This document shows, one piece after another, positions 34,210 through 41,224 of a DNA stretch of 64,000 bases; the first letter of the stretch is position 1; every line of letters begins with the position of its first letter. The notes under the pieces were generated by a model. The model worked only from the letters and a program-made list of their open reading frames with translations. It had not been told where the DNA came from and did not search any database. This stretch comes from Synechococcus sp. PCC 7335 (GTDB taxonomy: Bacteria; Cyanobacteriota; Cyanobacteriia; Phormidesmidales; Phormidesmidaceae): contig NZ_DS989904.1 of assembly GCF_000155595.1 (NCBI RefSeq), positions 3,399,720-3,463,719 of the forward strand. The letters are read 5' to 3'. A program made the position numbers and the translations under genes.

Positions 34210-34680
34210 TCAAACAGGAGAGTTAATCAGGCCAGGATGGTCGTTGGGTCTAGGTTCAGAAGCGGGCCAGTGAAAACGGCGATCGGTTTCCTGAATAGGC
34301 AAGTCATTAATGCTAGCTTCTCTACGGGCCATTAAGCCTTCTGCGTCAAATTCCCAGTTTTCGTTACCATAGGCTCGATACCATTGACCAGAGTCATCAT
34401 GCCATTCGTATTGAAAGCGAACGGCAATTCGGTTTTCTCCATAGGCCCAAAGCTCTTTGACGAGGCGATAGTCTAATTCTTTGTTCCATTTGCGCTCTAG
34501 GAAAGCGCGGATGGCTTCTCTACCTTGGATGATTTCGGCACGGTTACGCCAATGGCTATCTTCAGAGTAAGCCATTGATACTCGCTTTGGATCTCGGCTG
34601 TTCCAGGCGTTTTCAGCCATTCTCACTTTCTTTGTGGCGATATCTAGAGTGAAGGGTGGTACGAGTTTTGGAGATGACAT
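34210..34680 (-). CDS. NTF2-like / DUF1348 family protein
   Basis: 156 residues with the cone-shaped NTF2/SnoaL fold. Family motifs: [20 protein letters not shown] near residue 20, [60 protein letters not shown] and [18 protein letters not shown]. The family is widespread and conserved but no reaction is assigned. No signal peptide. ATG at 34680. It lies alone between an intergenic repeat region and the histidine kinase gene. Confidence 0.88.
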
Positions 34681-34836: not shown

Positions 34837-36027
34837 TTAAGATTTTTGAGGGGATAGTGGCAATCTGATCTTAAAGGTGGTGCCGATACCGGGCTGGCTT
34901 TCTACTTTGATATCTCCTTGCTGTAGGGCAACGAACTGTTTGACAATACTAAGCCCTAGCCCTGTACCTGGAATATTACTGACGTTTCTGCCGCGATGGA
35001 AAGGCTCAAAGAGATAGGGATAGTCTTCTGGCAAGATGCCAAGCCCCTGATCTTTGATTTGAAAGATAGCCTGATGCTTTCGCTGATAGAGCGATAGCTG
35101 AACTAGGCTGCCAGCGCTGCTGTAGCGAATTGCATTGGATAGAATGTTCGTCAAGATAGAGCGCAATAGCGTTTGATCTATTTCGGCTACCAAAGATCTA
35201 AACCTGCCGGTGAATTCTAGTCGTCTGTTATTAGGCTGAATCTCTAGTAGTAGCTGGTGGCAGAAGTCTGCTAGGTCAATTGGTCGCGGGCTCAGTGAGA
35301 GCCGCTTGGCTTCAAGCTTACCGAGAACCAAAATATCGTCAATCATGTGGGTCATGCGCTCGACGTTGGTAGCAATGCCTAGCAGGTATTTTTGCTTTTG
35401 GGTCTGAGTCAGTTTCTCATCGTAGCGACCCAAGGAAGAGACGGATAGAGCAATGTTGTTCAATGGGTTGCGAAATTCGTGGCAGACCATTGAAACAAAG
35501 CGAGATTTTAAGGCGCTGAGTTCTCGTAGGTGGGCATTGGCGGTGTATAGCTCAGCCGCGCGCGATCGCACTTTCTCTTCTAGATCCTCGTTGGTTTGCT
35601 GCAAGACAGTTTCAGCCCATTTTCGCTGGGTAATATCACGAAAGGTAACGACTGCTCCGATCACCTGCTTTTGCTCATCGCGCATGGGGGTGCTGATATA
35701 TTCCACTGGAAAGTTGGTACCGTCTTTGCGCCAGAAGACTTCGTTGGTGACGCGGTGGGTACTGCCATCGTGTAAGGCAGCATAGATAGGGCAGCTTTCT
35801 CGGTGATAATGAGTACCGTCAAGATACGAGTGGTGTAAAACGCGGTGCATTGACTGCCCGATGAGATCTTCTATATCCCAATCGATCATGGCTGCGGCGG
35901 CAGGGTTTACGAAGGTGACATTGCCCTCTAGGTCAAGGCCGTAGACCCCTTCGCCGACTGAATTGAGAATAAGCTGATACTGGCGTCTGAGTGTGACTAG
36001 CTCAGTCTGTTCTGAGTTATTGGGCAT
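34837..36027 (-). CDS. PAS domain sensor histidine kinase
   Basis: 396 residues, cytoplasmic (no membrane segment). A PAS domain from about residue 10 to 130 starts LILNSVGEGVYGLDLEGNVT and contains a His/Cys-rich stretch (GTHYHRESCPIYAALHDG) that might bind a cofactor or metal. A short coiled region follows (LEEKVRSRAAELYTANAHLR). The phosphoacceptor is in FVSMVCHEFRNPLNNIALS; the ATPase domain has LTNILSNAIRYSS (N box), DQGLGILPEDYPYLFEPF and GTGLGLSIVKQFVALQQGDI (G boxes). It is divergent from the response regulator gene 186 bases away, so the two are probably a pair. Confidence 0.88.
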   Translation of the reverse strand: MPNNSEQTELVTLRRQYQLILNSVGEGVYGLDLEGNVTFVNPAAAAMIDWDIEDLIGQSMHRVLHHSYLDGTHYHRESCPIYAALHDGSTHRVTNEVFWRKDGTNFPVEYISTPMRDEQKQVIGAVVTFRDITQRKWAETVLQQTNEDLEEKVRSRAAELYTANAHLRELSALKSRFVSMVCHEFRNPLNNIALSVSSLGRYDEKLTQTQKQKYLLGIATNVERMTHMIDDILVLGKLEAKRLSLSPRPIDLADFCHQLLLEIQPNNRRLEFTGRFRSLVAEIDQTLLRSILTNILSNAIRYSSAGSLVQLSLYQRKHQAIFQIKDQGLGILPEDYPYLFEPFHRGRNVSNIPGTGLGLSIVKQFVALQQGDIKVESQPGIGTTFKIRLPLSPQKS

Positions 36028-36212
36028 AGATTAGTTTTTGGGATTTGATTACTGAATTGGTATCACAAGTGCGAACGATACTGTGATGAGTTACACCACA
36101 GACTACGCAGACGGAGATCTATATAGAGATAGAAGTATAGATACAGGAGTTACGCGATATCTCTGGTTAGATTGGGCGGCTTCTAACAGCGAGGTTGACG
36201 TAGGTGGAAGGC

Positions 36213-36989
36213 ATGAGCGCTAGCATTCTTGTGATCGAAGATGAAGATGAAACTAGAGAGATCTTTTTGCGCTGTTTGGCCTTTGAAAATTTTAATGCGA
36301 TCGGGGCCAAAGATGGAGAAACTGGAATTGAGCTAGCGATCCAGCAGGTGCCCGATCTGATCGTGTGCGATATTATGATGCCAGCTATGGACGGCTATGG
36401 CGTACTTACTGCGCTAAGAAAGCATGAGTTCTTGCTGTCGATTCCGTTCATCTTTTTAACTGCGAAGGTGACAATGACCGACTTGCGTCAGGGGATGGCG
36501 CTAGGAGCGGATGATTATTTAACGAAGCCCTGCACAGTCGAACAGTTTTTGAGCGCGATCGCTACAAGACTTCAGCGCAGTGAAGAGATTCGCAATAGCG
36601 AGATTAAACAAAGCCCTTTTGGTAGTGAGTCAACTGCTATGAGACCTTCTCGGTTCTCTAGCATATTCCCTGATTGTCCTAAACTTCTACCTGTTTTTGA
36701 ATTCATCGACAGCCACTATCAGCAACCCATCAATCTGAGCGATGTTGCCCGGGCCGCAGGATACACACCTGCCTACTTGACGAGTCTGGCCCAAAGTCAC
36801 ACGGGCAAAACGGTGAAAAATTGGATAACTGAACGACGAATGACACAAGCTCGTCAGATGCTGAAAAATACTGCGCACTCGATTAAACAGATTGCGGAAG
36901 AGAGTGGGTACGGCGATCCTGGATACTTTACTCGGCAATTTAGAAAACTGCATGGGATGACACCTAAAGCCTGGCGAAGTCATCTATAG
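36213..36989 (+). CDS. response regulator with AraC-type DNA-binding domain
   Basis: About 258 residues. The receiver domain starts ILVIEDEDETREIFLRCLA; the phosphoacceptor Asp is in LIVCDIMMPAMDGYG, and FLTAKVTMTDLRQGMALGAD with YLTKP completes the site. The C-terminal AraC-type domain has two helix-turn-helix units: INLSDVARAAGYTPAYLTSL and IKQIAEESGYGDPGYFTRQF, ending KLHGMTPKAWR. The frame opens at GTG 36204, but ATG 36213 has AGGTGG six bases before it. It is next to the cyanate operon, so it could control that operon in response to the divergent kinase. Confidence 0.88.
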   Translation: MSASILVIEDEDETREIFLRCLAFENFNAIGAKDGETGIELAIQQVPDLIVCDIMMPAMDGYGVLTALRKHEFLLSIPFIFLTAKVTMTDLRQGMALGADDYLTKPCTVEQFLSAIATRLQRSEEIRNSEIKQSPFGSESTAMRPSRFSSIFPDCPKLLPVFEFIDSHYQQPINLSDVARAAGYTPAYLTSLAQSHTGKTVKNWITERRMTQARQMLKNTAHSIKQIAEESGYGDPGYFTRQFRKLHGMTPKAWRSHL

Positions 36990-37203: not shown

Positions 37204-38868
37204 TTGTCTCAGGTAAATCAACTTATGGCTTTGTCTCATACACAACAAACATTACATAGTCTAAATCGCGGTAGTCTTTTGACAAATGGTCTCTCTGACG
37301 GGTCTTCTAGCTGTAGCGTCTGTGGCGAGACTCACTTATCTACGAGCCACTGGGAGTTCATGCAAACGATGCCCACCGATCCTTTGGATATGGTGGATGA
37401 TCTAGTAAGGATGGGTCTCTATAAAGATCAGCAGCTCAATGTAGCGGACAAACTGAATACCTATGAGCTGCGCAAAGCACTGCTATTAAAGTCGGCAGGC
37501 AAAGGAAGTCTGAAGCGGGAAAAGCTAGTGCTGGCGCTCGCGCAGCAGGCAGGTGGCATCGAAAATGCCTTTGCGGCTGCTTTTGGACCACAGGCTGGAT
37601 TGTTCTTTGCGGACACTGTTCGCACGAGTAGTGCAACTCGTAGAGAGTTTTTGCGCAATGTGGCTATTGGTGCGGCAATGGTGACTTTGACTAACTGCGC
37701 TAGCCCTGAGGACCCTGATCCGGTAGCTAATGATGATGCTGAACCCGTGGATACTTCTGGCTTGGAGAAAACTGATCTAAAGATTGGCTTTATTCCGATT
37801 ACCTGTGCAACGCCGATCATTATGTCGGAGCCGTTGGGTTTTTATCAAAAATATGGTTTCAATGCGGAAGTGGTAAAAATGCCTAGCTGGGGGGCAGTTA
37901 GAGATAGTGCGATCGCCGGTGAACTTGATGCCTATCACATGCTAGCGCCGATGCCGATTGCGATGACGCTAGGACTAGGTTCAGGTGCTTTTGGGGTCAA
38001 GCTTGCCAGCATTGAAAATATTAACGGCCAAGCGATTACCGTCGCTAATAAGTACCAAGGCCAGGTCAACGGCCCAGCTGACTTTAAAGGCTTTACCATT
38101 GGGGTTCCCTTCCCGTATTCTATGCACAACCTGCTGCTTCGCTATTATCTGGCGACTGGCGGCATCGATCCAGATGTAGATGTCAAGATTCGTCCGGTTC
38201 CGCCTCCAGATAGTATTGCGCAGCTAGTTGCAGGAGATATTGACGCCTATCTCATGCCCGATCCTTTTAATCAAAGAGCTGTCTATGAAGAGGCTGGATT
38301 CATCTTTAAGCTAACAAAGGACATTTGGCCAGGACATCCCTGCTGTGCCTTTGCAGCTAGTGATCAGTGGATTAACGATAATCCCAACACGTTTAGAGCT
38401 TTGAACAAGTCTATTATTGAAGCTGCAGGGTACGCTAGCGATCCTGCAAATCGGGTAGAGATTGCAGAAGCAATCTCTGAGCGGGCTTTCCTTAATCAAC
38501 CTGTTGAAGTAGTTGAAGCTGTATTGACGGGTCAGTTTGATGATGGTTTAGGTAATACGCTAGATATTCCTGATCGGATCGATTTCGATCCCTATCCCTG
38601 GCAGAGTTTTGCCAACTGGATTTCTTCGCAGCTAGTTCGTTGGGACTTGCAAGGTGATGGCAAAGCTGCACAAGAGATTACCGATGAAAGCTATAACACA
38701 GTAGGTGAAGAGGTTTTTCTAACGGATCTAGCTAGAGAACTGGCTGAGGAAGTAGGGCTCAATCCACCTTCTGATATCTATCGGACAGAAGAGCTGGAGT
38801 TTGATACCTTCGATCCGGCGAAGCCTGGAGAGTACGTCAAGGAACAGATTGAGAAAAATGGCGTCTAG
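37204..38868 (+). CDS. cynA: cyanate ABC transporter substrate-binding protein with long N-terminal extension
   Basis: Binds cyanate (or a similar anion) outside the cell membrane for import by CynBD. From about residue 190 it follows the NrtA/CmpA/CynA family: LKIGFIPITCATPIIMSEPL, YGFNAEVVKMPSWGAVRDSA and NLLLRYYLATGGIDPDVDVK. An export signal with a twin-arginine and lipobox look is internal: RREFLRNVAIGAAMVTLTNC at residues 146-165. In front lie about 140 residues with CSVC at 37-40 and helical segments (DPLDMVDDLVRMGLYKDQ). There is no Met between residues 70 and 159, so the extension is real unless translation starts elsewhere. The start is TTG 37204; ATG 37225 is an alternative. First gene of cynABDS. 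Confidence 0.8.
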   Translation: MSQVNQLMALSHTQQTLHSLNRGSLLTNGLSDGSSSCSVCGETHLSTSHWEFMQTMPTDPLDMVDDLVRMGLYKDQQLNVADKLNTYELRKALLLKSAGKGSLKREKLVLALAQQAGGIENAFAAAFGPQAGLFFADTVRTSSATRREFLRNVAIGAAMVTLTNCASPEDPDPVANDDAEPVDTSGLEKTDLKIGFIPITCATPIIMSEPLGFYQKYGFNAEVVKMPSWGAVRDSAIAGELDAYHMLAPMPIAMTLGLGSGAFGVKLASIENINGQAITVANKYQGQVNGPADFKGFTIGVPFPYSMHNLLLRYYLATGGIDPDVDVKIRPVPPPDSIAQLVAGDIDAYLMPDPFNQRAVYEEAGFIFKLTKDIWPGHPCCAFAASDQWINDNPNTFRALNKSIIEAAGYASDPANRVEIAEAISERAFLNQPVEVVEAVLTGQFDDGLGNTLDIPDRIDFDPYPWQSFANWISSQLVRWDLQGDGKAAQEITDESYNTVGEEVFLTDLARELAEEVGLNPPSDIYRTEELEFDTFDPAKPGEYVKEQIEKNGV

Positions 38869-38925: not shown

Positions 38926-39765
38926 GTGACTACAAGTAAAGCAACGATAGGTAGCCTTAGCACAGCCAAGAAAGAGACTTTTTGGCAAAACCAAAATGTT
39001 CAAGCGATTGGACTGTTCCTTCTCTCTTTGATCTTGTTTCTAGGATTCTGGGAGTTTGGCGCGAATATGAAGTGGTTTGCTAGAGGCATGCCAACTGCTT
39101 CAAAGACCTTGCAAGAACTATGGTGGTGGTCTACACACCCATTTTTTGATAATGGTCCTAATGATTTAGGAATTGGTTGGAATTTGTTGATTAGCCTACG
39201 ACGAGTTGCCATTGGTTACACGCTAGCTTCTTTGATTGCAGTTCCACTAGGAATTTTGATTGGCATTTCACCGATTGCCTACAAAGCGTTTAATCCCTAT
39301 GTTCAGCTGTTGAAGCCAGTTTCTCCACTGGCCTGGTTACCACTAGGACTGTATATCTTTCGAGATTCGGAGATAACTGGAATTTTCATTATCTTGATCT
39401 CTAGCATTTGGCCAACGCTAACTAACACTGCGTTTGGAGTGGCGAATGTCAGTCCTGAGTATCTTGATGTTTCTAAAACGCTGGGAGCTTCTAGACTACG
39501 GACAATTTTTAAGATTATCATTCCGGCGGCTCTGCCCAATATCGTTTCTGGCTTACGTATTAGTATGGGCATCTCATGGCTGGTAATTGTAGCGGCTGAG
39601 ATGCTTTTGGGAACGGGTTTAGGCTACTTTATTTGGAACGAGTGGAACAATCTCTACATCCCAAATATTCTGGTAGCTATCTTTATTATTGGTCTAGTTG
39701 GTTTGATTCTTGATAGCGTTTTTGCTGCGCTTGAAAAATTTGTTGAATTTGGTCGAAAATCATGA
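38926..39765 (+). CDS. cynB: cyanate/nitrate-type ABC transporter permease
   Basis: Inner membrane permease of the NrtB/CmpB/CynB type. 279 residues with about six membrane segments, beginning [20 protein letters not shown]. The loop that contacts the ATPase is [20 protein letters not shown] followed by [38 protein letters not shown] is also typical. GTG start at 38926, 57 bases after cynA. Its end overlaps the start of cynD by four bases (39762-39765), so translation is coupled. Confidence 0.87.
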
Positions 39766-40667
39766 GTAGGACTGTTGATTCTCTTCGTTCAGCTAATCTA
39801 TCAACTCATACTACCGTGTCTCTTGAACCCGAAGTCCCATCGGCACAGCTTTCTATTCGCAATGTGACTAAGGTGTTTGAAGGAAAGCAGGACATCTTTA
39901 GCAAGCTGTCGCGCAAGACTACGCGAGACTTTACGGCTATCGAAGATATCAGTATTGACATCGAGCCGAATACGTTTGTTTCGATTATTGGACCTTCGGG
40001 CTGCGGTAAGTCGACTCTGTTGAACATGATTGCAGGGCTTTCCGATATTACTGGCGGAGAGATTCTACTCAATAATCGGCCGATTCATGGACCAGGCCCG
40101 GATCGAGGAATGGTGTTTCAGAACTATGCGCTGATGCCTTGGATGAGCGTGGAGGAGAATATTCGCTTTGCAGTGGAGACGGTGTATCCAAAGCTGCCAT
40201 CGAAGCAGATGACTCGTCGGATCAAGGAAAATATTCAGCTGGTTGGATTAGAAGGTGCTGAAAAGAAGCATCCTCACCAGCTTTCGGGTGGAATGCGACA
40301 GCGAGTGGGAATTGCCCGGGCATTAGCGATCGATCCGCAAATTTTGCTGATGGACGAGCCGTTTGGGGCGCTAGATGCGTTGACTAGGGGCTTTTTGCAG
40401 AGTGAGGTAGAGCGAATATGGGAACAGCAGCGCAAGACGGTGATTATGATTACACACAGTATTGAGGAAGCTCTGTTGCTTTCTGATCGAATTGTGATGA
40501 TGACTAGAGGCCCAGCGGCAAGGGTTGATGAAGTTTTAGAAGTGCCTTTTCCGCGTCCGCGCGATCGCGAAACCATCGATCAGCATCCGGCTTATCACGC
40601 GCTCAAAACGGAGATGGAACGGCATTTGTTTCGAGAGACGCAGGCGGTAGAGGCATCGCGGATCTAA
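39762..40667 (+). CDS. cynD: cyanate/nitrate-type ABC transporter ATP-binding protein
   Basis: ATPase of the importer, of the NrtD/CmpD/CynD type (about 300 residues, without the extra substrate-binding domain of NrtC). Walker [22 protein letters not shown]-loop: [22 protein letters not shown] signature: [20 protein letters not shown]; Walker [18 protein letters not shown]; switch His: [20 protein letters not shown]. The first 30 residues are a short variable lead. It overlaps cynB and is followed after 113 bases by cynS. Confidence 0.9.
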
Positions 40668-40780
40668 AAGAGACTCTGAGACTACTTACTAGGAAGATTT
40701 ATTTTAGGCCTAAAAGACTAAGTGCTGCGCTCGGGCTAGCTATCAATTGACTAATTTACTAACTTTAAGAGGTGTTTGGC

Positions 40781-41224
40781 ATGACGACTCCAGAAATAAC
40801 AAAGAAGCTTCTGGCTGCGAAGAAAGAGAAAGGTTTAAGCTTCGCGGATTTAGAAGCTAAGCTAGGCTTCGACGAGGTTTGGATCGCGTCGGTGTTTTAT
40901 CGGCAGGCGAGTGCTTCTGAAGAGGAGGCTAGTCAGATGGTGGAGATGCTGGAGTTAGGGCCAGATGTGGCGGAAGCGCTAACTGAGTGTCCGGTAAAGG
41001 GTGGGCTAGATCCCCTGGTGCCGACTGATCCGCTAATCTATCGCTTCTACGAGATTATGCAGGTGTATGGTATGCCGGTGAAAGCGGTGGTGCATGAGAA
41101 GTTTGGCGATGGAATTATGAGCGCAATTGATTTTTCGATTGATGTAGAGAGAGAAGAAGATCCGAAGGGCGATCGAGTGAAGGTGATTATGTGCGGTAAG
41201 TTTTTACCTTATAAGAAGTGGTAG
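40781..41224 (+). CDS. cynS: cyanate lyase (cyanase)
   Basis: Converts cyanate and bicarbonate into ammonia and CO2 (through carbamate). 147 residues, the usual length. The N-terminal helical domain starts [20 protein letters not shown]. The active site residues Arg, Glu and Ser are in [13 protein letters not shown] (Arg and Glu) and [11 protein letters not shown] (Ser); the C terminus GKFLPYKKW is typical. The frame extends to 40772, but ATG 40781 has GAGGTG six bases before it. As last gene of cynABDS it uses the cyanate brought in by the transporter, supplying nitrogen and carbon. Confidence 0.95.

Follow-up and report, generated by a model that had tools for sequence, protein, structure and literature searches.

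The cyn locus

The window, i.e. the complete stretch of 64,000 nucleotides of Synechococcus sp. PCC 7335 DNA that was analysed, contains an open frame of 554 aa starting with TTG 37204, in which the twin-arginine/lipobox-like segment RREFLRNVAIGAAMVTLTNC occupies residues 146-165. The original prediction that this segment is internal and not N-terminal was therefore correct. Since the alignment of the homologs begins at approximately ATG 37225 and not at TTG 37204, residues are counted from ATG 37225 throughout (TTG-based numbers minus seven). The genes of the locus are:

37225..38868, + strand: cynA, encoding the precursor (547 aa from the assumed start ATG 37225) of the binding protein of a cyanate-type ABC transporter (Pfam NMT1_2, PF13379)
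38926..39765, + strand: cynB, permease (NCBIfam TIGR01183 ntrB, 210.5 bits, cut-off 209.05)
39762..40667, + strand: cynD, ATPase, 301 aa (NCBIfam TIGR01184 ntrCD, 311.9 bits, cut-off 291.8)
40772..41224, + strand: cynS, cyanase (NCBIfam TIGR00673, 208.5 bits, cut-off 113.3)

CynB, CynD and CynS scored above the curated NCBIfam cut-offs and their genes lie directly downstream of cynA. Judged by sequence, the gene under study is cynA of a cynA-cynB-cynD-cynS operon, and CynABDS is here a putative cyanate uptake system. Some cyanobacteria use cyanate as a source of nitrogen, and its transport is functional in S. elongatus PCC 7942, of which PCC 6301 is a close relative. Of 98 scanned loci, 76 had the complete set of four genes; among the 78 named loci this number was 59. 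The remainder are orphans or loci cut by contig ends.

The cynA precursor comprises a 137-residue extension, followed by a Tat signal and a binding protein with the NrtA/CmpA fold. This architecture, a domain ahead of a Tat signal and then the binding protein, is very probably correct. Its parts are:

37225..37635, + strand: pre-signal extension, residues 1-137, predicted to be cytoplasmic, matching no family in the libraries searched (family searches, distribution)
37312..37350, + strand: C-x2-C-x3-H-x4-H motif (C30, C33, H37, H42), metal-site-like (column conservation, tallies)
37342..37623, + strand: residues 40-133 of the extension, a core with seven predicted helices (AlphaFold2)
37636..37698, + strand: Tat signal with lipobox, residues 138-158, TRREFLRNVAIGAAMVTLTNC (TIGR01409 at 138-158; AlphaFold2 helix 139-157; homolog counts)
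37696..38865, + strand: predicted mature binding protein, residues 158-547, NrtA/CmpA fold (Foldseek)

Genes for a PAS histidine kinase (34837-36027, minus strand) and an AraC-type response regulator (36204-36989) are located directly upstream of cynA. The same pair was found upstream at locus L074, a PAS kinase and a response regulator precede the cyn genes of a Pseudanabaena plasmid, and a sigma-54- or PAS-type regulator lies upstream in four proteobacterial cyn operons. A DUF1348 (SnoaL-like) protein is encoded near the cyn operon (window positions 34213-34680) and also near the operon of L074. Approximately 0.2 Mb from the cyn operon, the genome harbors a nitrile hydratase alpha gene, around which three matches to distant binding proteins are located (G000:C1:3625862-3641952).

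Translation of the extension

Methionines of the precursor are located at positions 1, 46, 49, 56 and 63, the next one at 152, confirming the gap before the signal that had been noticed originally. The related statement that no normal start lies near the signal holds for ATG, but GTG codon 102 and TTG codon 126, the latter 13 codons ahead of RR, are in frame and nearer to RR. Internal starts of this kind are not shared among the 84 named homologs, a set leaning toward close relatives as the search was for the best 80. Forty of the 84 homologous frames contain no ATG, GTG or TTG within 30 codons before RR, and within 45 codons the commonest start-codon position is common to at most 19. A possible start seven codons before RR exists in 18 of the 84 and thirteen codons before it in 11, while an ATG within 45 codons occurs in 13.

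In a comparison with 13 homologs from among the nearest, dN of the extension was 0.06-0.21 at saturated synonymous sites. The values for the binding domain were 0.03-0.09 in the same comparison, so the extension evolves faster. The low dN in conjunction with saturated synonymous sites indicates that the extension is under protein-level constraint, which is looser than that on the binding domain. In the Pseudanabaena plasmid record, the gene is annotated with the extension included. The extension is not a mis-called start.

Sequence and predicted structure of the extension

The CSVC motif described in the original prediction corresponds to C30 and C33. The pattern C-x(1,2)-C-x3-H-x4-H is complete in 82 of the 84 named homologs, the exceptions being L105, which lacks the first His, and L089, which begins at a contig edge. 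The distance between motif and RR amounts to 108-111 residues in the 82 homologs of this set that were measured. Alignment of 30 diverse members disclosed, among others, invariant C4, H16, P24, P27, D33, M37, an AGG triplet and FG. The variant C-x-C-x2-C-x6-H is found in three rows whose genomes are small and, judging from their size, picocyanobacterium-like, and C-x-C-x2-C in two proteobacterial rows. Cys and His, the possible metal ligands, appear to swap among the rows, and their pattern suggests that a metal may be bound.

The helices anticipated for this region were borne out by AlphaFold2 at modest confidence. About seven helices were predicted (mean pLDDT 68, pTM 0.38), with block means of 43-73 across the helical core in the full-length model. 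At a pTM of 0.38, the model is too weak for naming a fold. When the extension alone was searched against family and structure databases, no known relative was found there. Pfam and NCBIfam yielded no relative, and the best Pfam matches of the 30 diverse members had E-values of 0.04-0.2, each family being hit by one or two of the 30. No zinc-binding family (zinc ribbon or zinc knuckle) was among the Pfam matches of these members up to an E-value of 1. Comparisons with the PDB by sequence and profile gave nothing below E 0.4, and Foldseek searches with the model nothing below E 5.6. Similarly, the extension is not described in the titles, abstracts or passages covered by the literature search, whose scope did not extend to most subscription papers. 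The binding protein and the operon are of known kinds, and the pre-signal domain is new to the libraries and literature searched.

Tat signal and topology

The signal contains RR at positions 139-140 and the lipobox Cys158. Its sequence TRREFL...LTNC fits the consensus S/T-RR-x-F-L, a moderately hydrophobic stretch and a lipobox Cys. With TIGR01409, the signal reached 16.0 bits compared to a curated cut-off of 16.7, while the Pseudanabaena ortholog scored above it (22.2 bits). RR is present in 83 of the 84 named homologs and replaced by RK in one. A lipobox-like Cys was found in all 84 named cyanobacterial copies, and is missing in five of 33 rows of a more diverse set (34 rows including the window, of which the frame-broken L044 was not scored). 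In 11 proteobacterial rows, the signals end in an Ala-x-Ala-type site, as judged by eye. Both TatC and a lipoprotein signal peptidase are encoded in the genome of PCC 7335.

Unlike in the usual Tat-exported lipoprotein, the signal is not located at or near the N-terminus. The topology of signal peptides implies that sequence preceding RR stays inside the cell and is cut off at maturation. From this topology, we infer that the extension is cytoplasmic and removed together with the signal peptide.

Distribution in cyanobacteria

Searched by itself, the extension was detected in 142 of 388 cyanobacterial genomes. In a phylum-wide draw, its profile was detected in 30 of 386 genomes, all belonging to the window's own class. 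Searches of 242 genomes of this class with the binding domain gave 109 CynA-type matches of at least 54% identity in 94 genomes. The next relatives among the matches listed were at most 43% identical and had frames of 482-523 or 594-768 aa. Six of them were examined; by length, three are of the NrtA type and three of the NrtC/CmpC type. The extension profile matched 97 genomes in a draw of 242 with the same genome labels, namely all 94 with a CynA-type protein and additionally G048, G066 and G099, in which only remnants exist. Each of the 109 CynA-type matches has an extension match in the same genome; genome and copy number, rather than coordinates, were used for the pairing. For 104 full matches the copy numbers are in agreement, while the extension matches of the other five are weak, diverged or frame-broken. 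A frame of at least 512 aa is present in 104 of the 109 cases, the remaining five measuring 446, 463, 373, 479 and 499 aa.

Among these five, extension and binding protein are encoded in different frames in three genomes (G031, G128, G185), the gene is split over contigs in one (G056), and the last possesses a diverged extension with a CWCG-containing start (G114). The frame-broken copies suggest that an entire domain on the same chain may not be required in every case, so that complete fusion may be dispensable unless the frame breaks are sequencing errors. Candidates for a stand-alone domain were discarded as they turned out to be frame-broken (G048, G128) or cut by a contig end (G056). One of the frame-broken copies is that at L196:3533-5168; if its frame break is real, this strain has no continuous extension.

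A scan of the genome collection with a single pattern, by which other cases could be missed, confirmed 101 stretches. Of these, 78 loci were kept, all cyanobacterial by title, and the long form of the extension was not seen outside cyanobacteria in this one-pattern scan. One plasmid copy was found, in Pseudanabaena, while viral contigs gave no extension match.

Orphan paralogs without a permease of their own keep both extension and signal, from which it follows that the extension travels with the binding protein and not with the operon. The orphan L040 lies beside genes for a nitrile hydratase, a carbon-nitrogen hydrolase and an isochorismatase-type protein, and L106 has a similar-looking setting, judged by sequence starts. 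The L074 paralog is located upstream of the main operon, together with OsmC and acyl-CoA dehydrogenase genes. The position of extension-bearing orphans beside nitrile hydratase/amidase-like genes (L040:2529-8004 by Pfam, L106:2939-7920 by sequence starts) hints that they might be binding proteins for nitrile- or cyanide-related nitrogen.

Relatives outside cyanobacteria

In eleven plasmid-borne proteobacterial CynA-type proteins, RR is preceded by a shorter stretch. The proteins are from Methylobacterium, Loktanella, two Bosea, Caballeronia, Moraxella, two Bradyrhizobium, Variovorax, Acetobacter and a Rhodobacteraceae strain. All 11 contain C-x-C in this stretch, often with a further His or Cys after it. 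They derive from 14 of 34 records, the other three being Pseudanabaena, Pantoea and Corynebacterium; the remaining 20 records largely represent additional strains of these genera. An annotated cynS adjoins the gene in five of the 11 rows. It is not adjoining in four, some of which lie near aldoxime- or nitrile-type genes, and the records of two have no gene table. With cynS annotated beside just five, some of these rows may not represent cyanate proteins. Alignment of the cyanobacterial and proteobacterial extensions by hhalign brought the motifs into register, yet the match was weak (probability 19.5%, E 0.0012). The proteobacterial stretch is a possible homolog of the cyanobacterial domain. 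In a tree calculated by a quick method with no bootstrap, the 40 cyanobacterial rows (the frame-broken L196 and L197 counted as extension-bearing) and the 11 proteobacterial rows fell on either side of a branch with an SH-aLRT of 95, the placement of the long branches L231 and L232 being uncertain.

As foreseen, the NrtA-type relatives examined begin with the signal. Three cyanobacterial NrtA-type proteins and the Pantoea nitrate-type protein start at RR. Orthologs starting at the twin-arginine, which would argue against an extension as part of CynA, were not seen among the cyanobacterial CynA-type copies. Outside cyanobacteria one such case came to light, a distant Corynebacterium relative (L232) with the three CynA-type cysteines and a Tat-like signal, which starts at RR without extension. 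It is the clearest case against a strict coupling.

The mature binding protein

CynA residues 180-418 matched Pfam NMT1_2 (PF13379) with an E-value of 1.9e-76, and the model of the binding protein was similar to NrtA (2g29, TMt 0.86) and CmpA (2i48, TMt 0.81) in Foldseek. CynA is thus predicted to have an NMT1_2 domain and an NrtA-type fold. A CynA structure was not found in the structure searches. Three cysteines distinguish the CynA-type rows:

37804..37806, + strand: Cys194 (ITCATP), Cys in CynA-type rows, Asp in NrtA/NrtC-type rows (alignment)
38341..38346, + strand: Cys373-Cys374 (GHPCC), Cys in CynA-type rows, Glu-Lys in NrtA/NrtC-type rows (alignment)

All 51 CynA-type rows (40 cyanobacterial, 11 proteobacterial) contain Cys194, Cys373 and Cys374, and so does the Corynebacterium row. 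Seven outgroup rows, three NrtA-type, three NrtC-type and Pantoea, have Asp, Glu and Lys at these positions. The presumed nitrate-site lysine is absent from CynA, where Cys374 occupies the column; Lys occurs in seven of the eight outgroup rows, the eighth being Corynebacterium. The solved CmpC regulatory domain shows Ala and Gly at the first two cysteine positions and keeps Lys at the third. According to passages of PMC13204499 and PMC8786288, Lys269 and His196 of NrtA contact nitrate. The alignments share an offset of four residues, according to which Lys269 would correspond to Cys374 and His196 to His301. The three cysteines may therefore line the ligand pocket, the register of Lys269 having been taken from the alignment and not from superposed structures. 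These replacements suggest that the ligand chemistry of the CynA type differs from that of the nitrate type. The three-cysteine signature can also serve as a simple annotation marker separating both types.

Possible functions of the extension

The original prediction had offered two possibilities, a cytoplasmic domain that controls export or a protein permanently anchored in the membrane with a cytoplasmic head. A real domain ahead of the Tat signal, cytoplasmic by topology, indeed accompanies every CynA-type copy in 242 cyanobacterial genomes, but control of export is only possible. The permanent anchor is less favoured because the cleavage site is usually kept, as a Cys in all 84 named copies and as Ala-x-Ala in the 11 proteobacterial rows.

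The near-fixed distance to RR and the occurrence of the domain only on Tat-signal proteins with three conserved cysteines are best explained by a maturation or export gate acting in cis. The cynA gene would give rise to a two-part precursor, starting with a small domain (residues 1-137) that is mainly helical and displays a metal-site-like motif of the Cys2His2 type. This domain would sit on the N-terminal, cytoplasmic side of the Tat signal and be parted from the mature lipoprotein by cleavage before Cys158. Prior to export, it would act in cis by recognizing or stabilizing the folding precursor, whose release to the Tat translocase would have to wait until the three-cysteine binding domain has folded and reached its proper state, either reduced or loaded with metal. 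The cysteines conserved in all CynA-type rows might provide such a state, one that an export route for folded proteins could proofread. C-x-C ahead of RR in all 11 proteobacterial CynA-type rows speaks for the gate, compared to the three NrtA-type rows and Pantoea, which start at RR. On the other hand, the Corynebacterium protein has the cysteines and a Tat-like signal without the domain, and in three genomes the domain is out of frame with the binding protein. The faster evolution of the extension, a model too weak for a fold, the weak hhalign match of the proteobacterial stretch and an annotated cynS beside just five of the 11 proteobacterial rows likewise count against it. Owing to the frame-broken copies and the Corynebacterium case, our confidence in the favoured function stays somewhat below one half, namely that CynA is proofread or matured prior to export by a domain lying in the cytoplasm ahead of the signal and lost together with the signal peptide. 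Metal binding and a role in export or maturation are put forward more cautiously than the location and removal of the domain.

In falling order of probability, the rivals see the extension as a regulator of CynB/CynD, as a leftover that is tolerated, as the inner part of an anchor that stays uncleaved, or as the result of a wrongly assigned start. As a cytoplasmic regulator of uptake, the extension, freed or still attached, would bind CynD/CynB or a signalling protein, e.g. PII, and gate transport, thereby taking over the job of the C-terminal regulatory domain of NrtC/CmpC. CynD is in fact too short for an NrtC-type domain. In addition, passages of PMC6603209 state that PII acts on NrtC and NrtD and refer to previous studies in which PII was suggested to control cyanate transport by S. 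elongatus. However, the domain is kept on orphan paralogs without an adjoining permease, the mostly conserved cleavage sites argue against its remaining attached to the mature protein, and a link between PII and CynA did not appear in the literature passages searched. We consider this function unlikely.

It is conceivable, but improbable, that the extension is a built-in metallochaperone. C-x(1,2)-C-x3-H-x4-H would take up a cytoplasmic metal and load a site made of C194, C373 and C374 in its own binding domain, whereupon Tat would export the loaded protein and the signal peptidase cut off the chaperone. This would make the CynA type a group of metal-thiolate binding proteins, in contrast to NrtA with its lysine and CmpA with its calcium.

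There is likewise a small chance that the extension is a tolerated leftover, i.e. a long n-region whose sole job is to keep the signal exposed. The open frame of the binding protein in the three genomes with a broken extension, the extension-only remnants in G048, G066 and G099, and the faster evolution relative to the binding domain would fit such a relic. Conservation at the protein level with invariant residues and the presence of the extension with all 109 copies do not. Hardly probable is a signal that stays uncleaved in the membrane, making the outer binding protein and the inner extension one bitopic protein: the signal helix is predicted whole and five diverse rows lack the lipobox Cys, yet the Cys is found in every named copy and the proteobacterial signals end in an Ala-x-Ala-like site by eye. 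Translation from an internal non-ATG codon near RR, leaving the upstream frame unmade, is extremely improbable, for GTG codon 102, TTG codon 126 and the possible start seven codons before RR in 18 homologs are outweighed by the lack of a shared internal start (none within 30 codons in 40 of 84), by purifying selection on the upstream sequence and by the annotated Pseudanabaena record.

Comparison with known systems

A conserved domain ahead of a Tat signal is an unusual design, which could show proofreading in cis or control of uptake from the inside. As in long Tat signals with extended n-regions, the CynA sequence before RR lies on the cytoplasmic side. Tat signals of Pseudomonas aeruginosa comprise 23-60 residues, as reported in passages of PMC6085387; by contrast, CynA has 157 residues before the predicted lipidated Cys, including a conserved domain.

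In gene content and order, the locus resembles CynABD plus CynS of the cynABDS operon, which is placed under NtcA in a review table (passages of PMC13421787). Another review, also seen in passages, notes that marine cyanate transporters are not yet functionally validated (PMC8786288). The passages of the CynABDS literature that were searched do not mention a pre-signal domain of CynA, and those on redox labelling in PCC 7002 name CynS, not CynA (PMC4080843). With NrtA and CmpA (PF13379; PDB 2g29, 2i48), CynA shares the fold, the mature length and the type of permease and ATPase, and with the three NrtA-type rows the RR signal. What separates it from NrtA is the pre-signal domain, which the three NrtA-type rows lack, and Cys in place of Asp, Glu and Lys. 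As an idea, a cytoplasmic regulatory part is reminiscent of the C-terminal regulatory domain of NrtC/CmpC (PDB 8wm7, 9uak). However, that domain is a homolog of the binding protein carried on the ATPase, whereas the CynA extension has no sequence relation to it and is carried on the binding protein itself.
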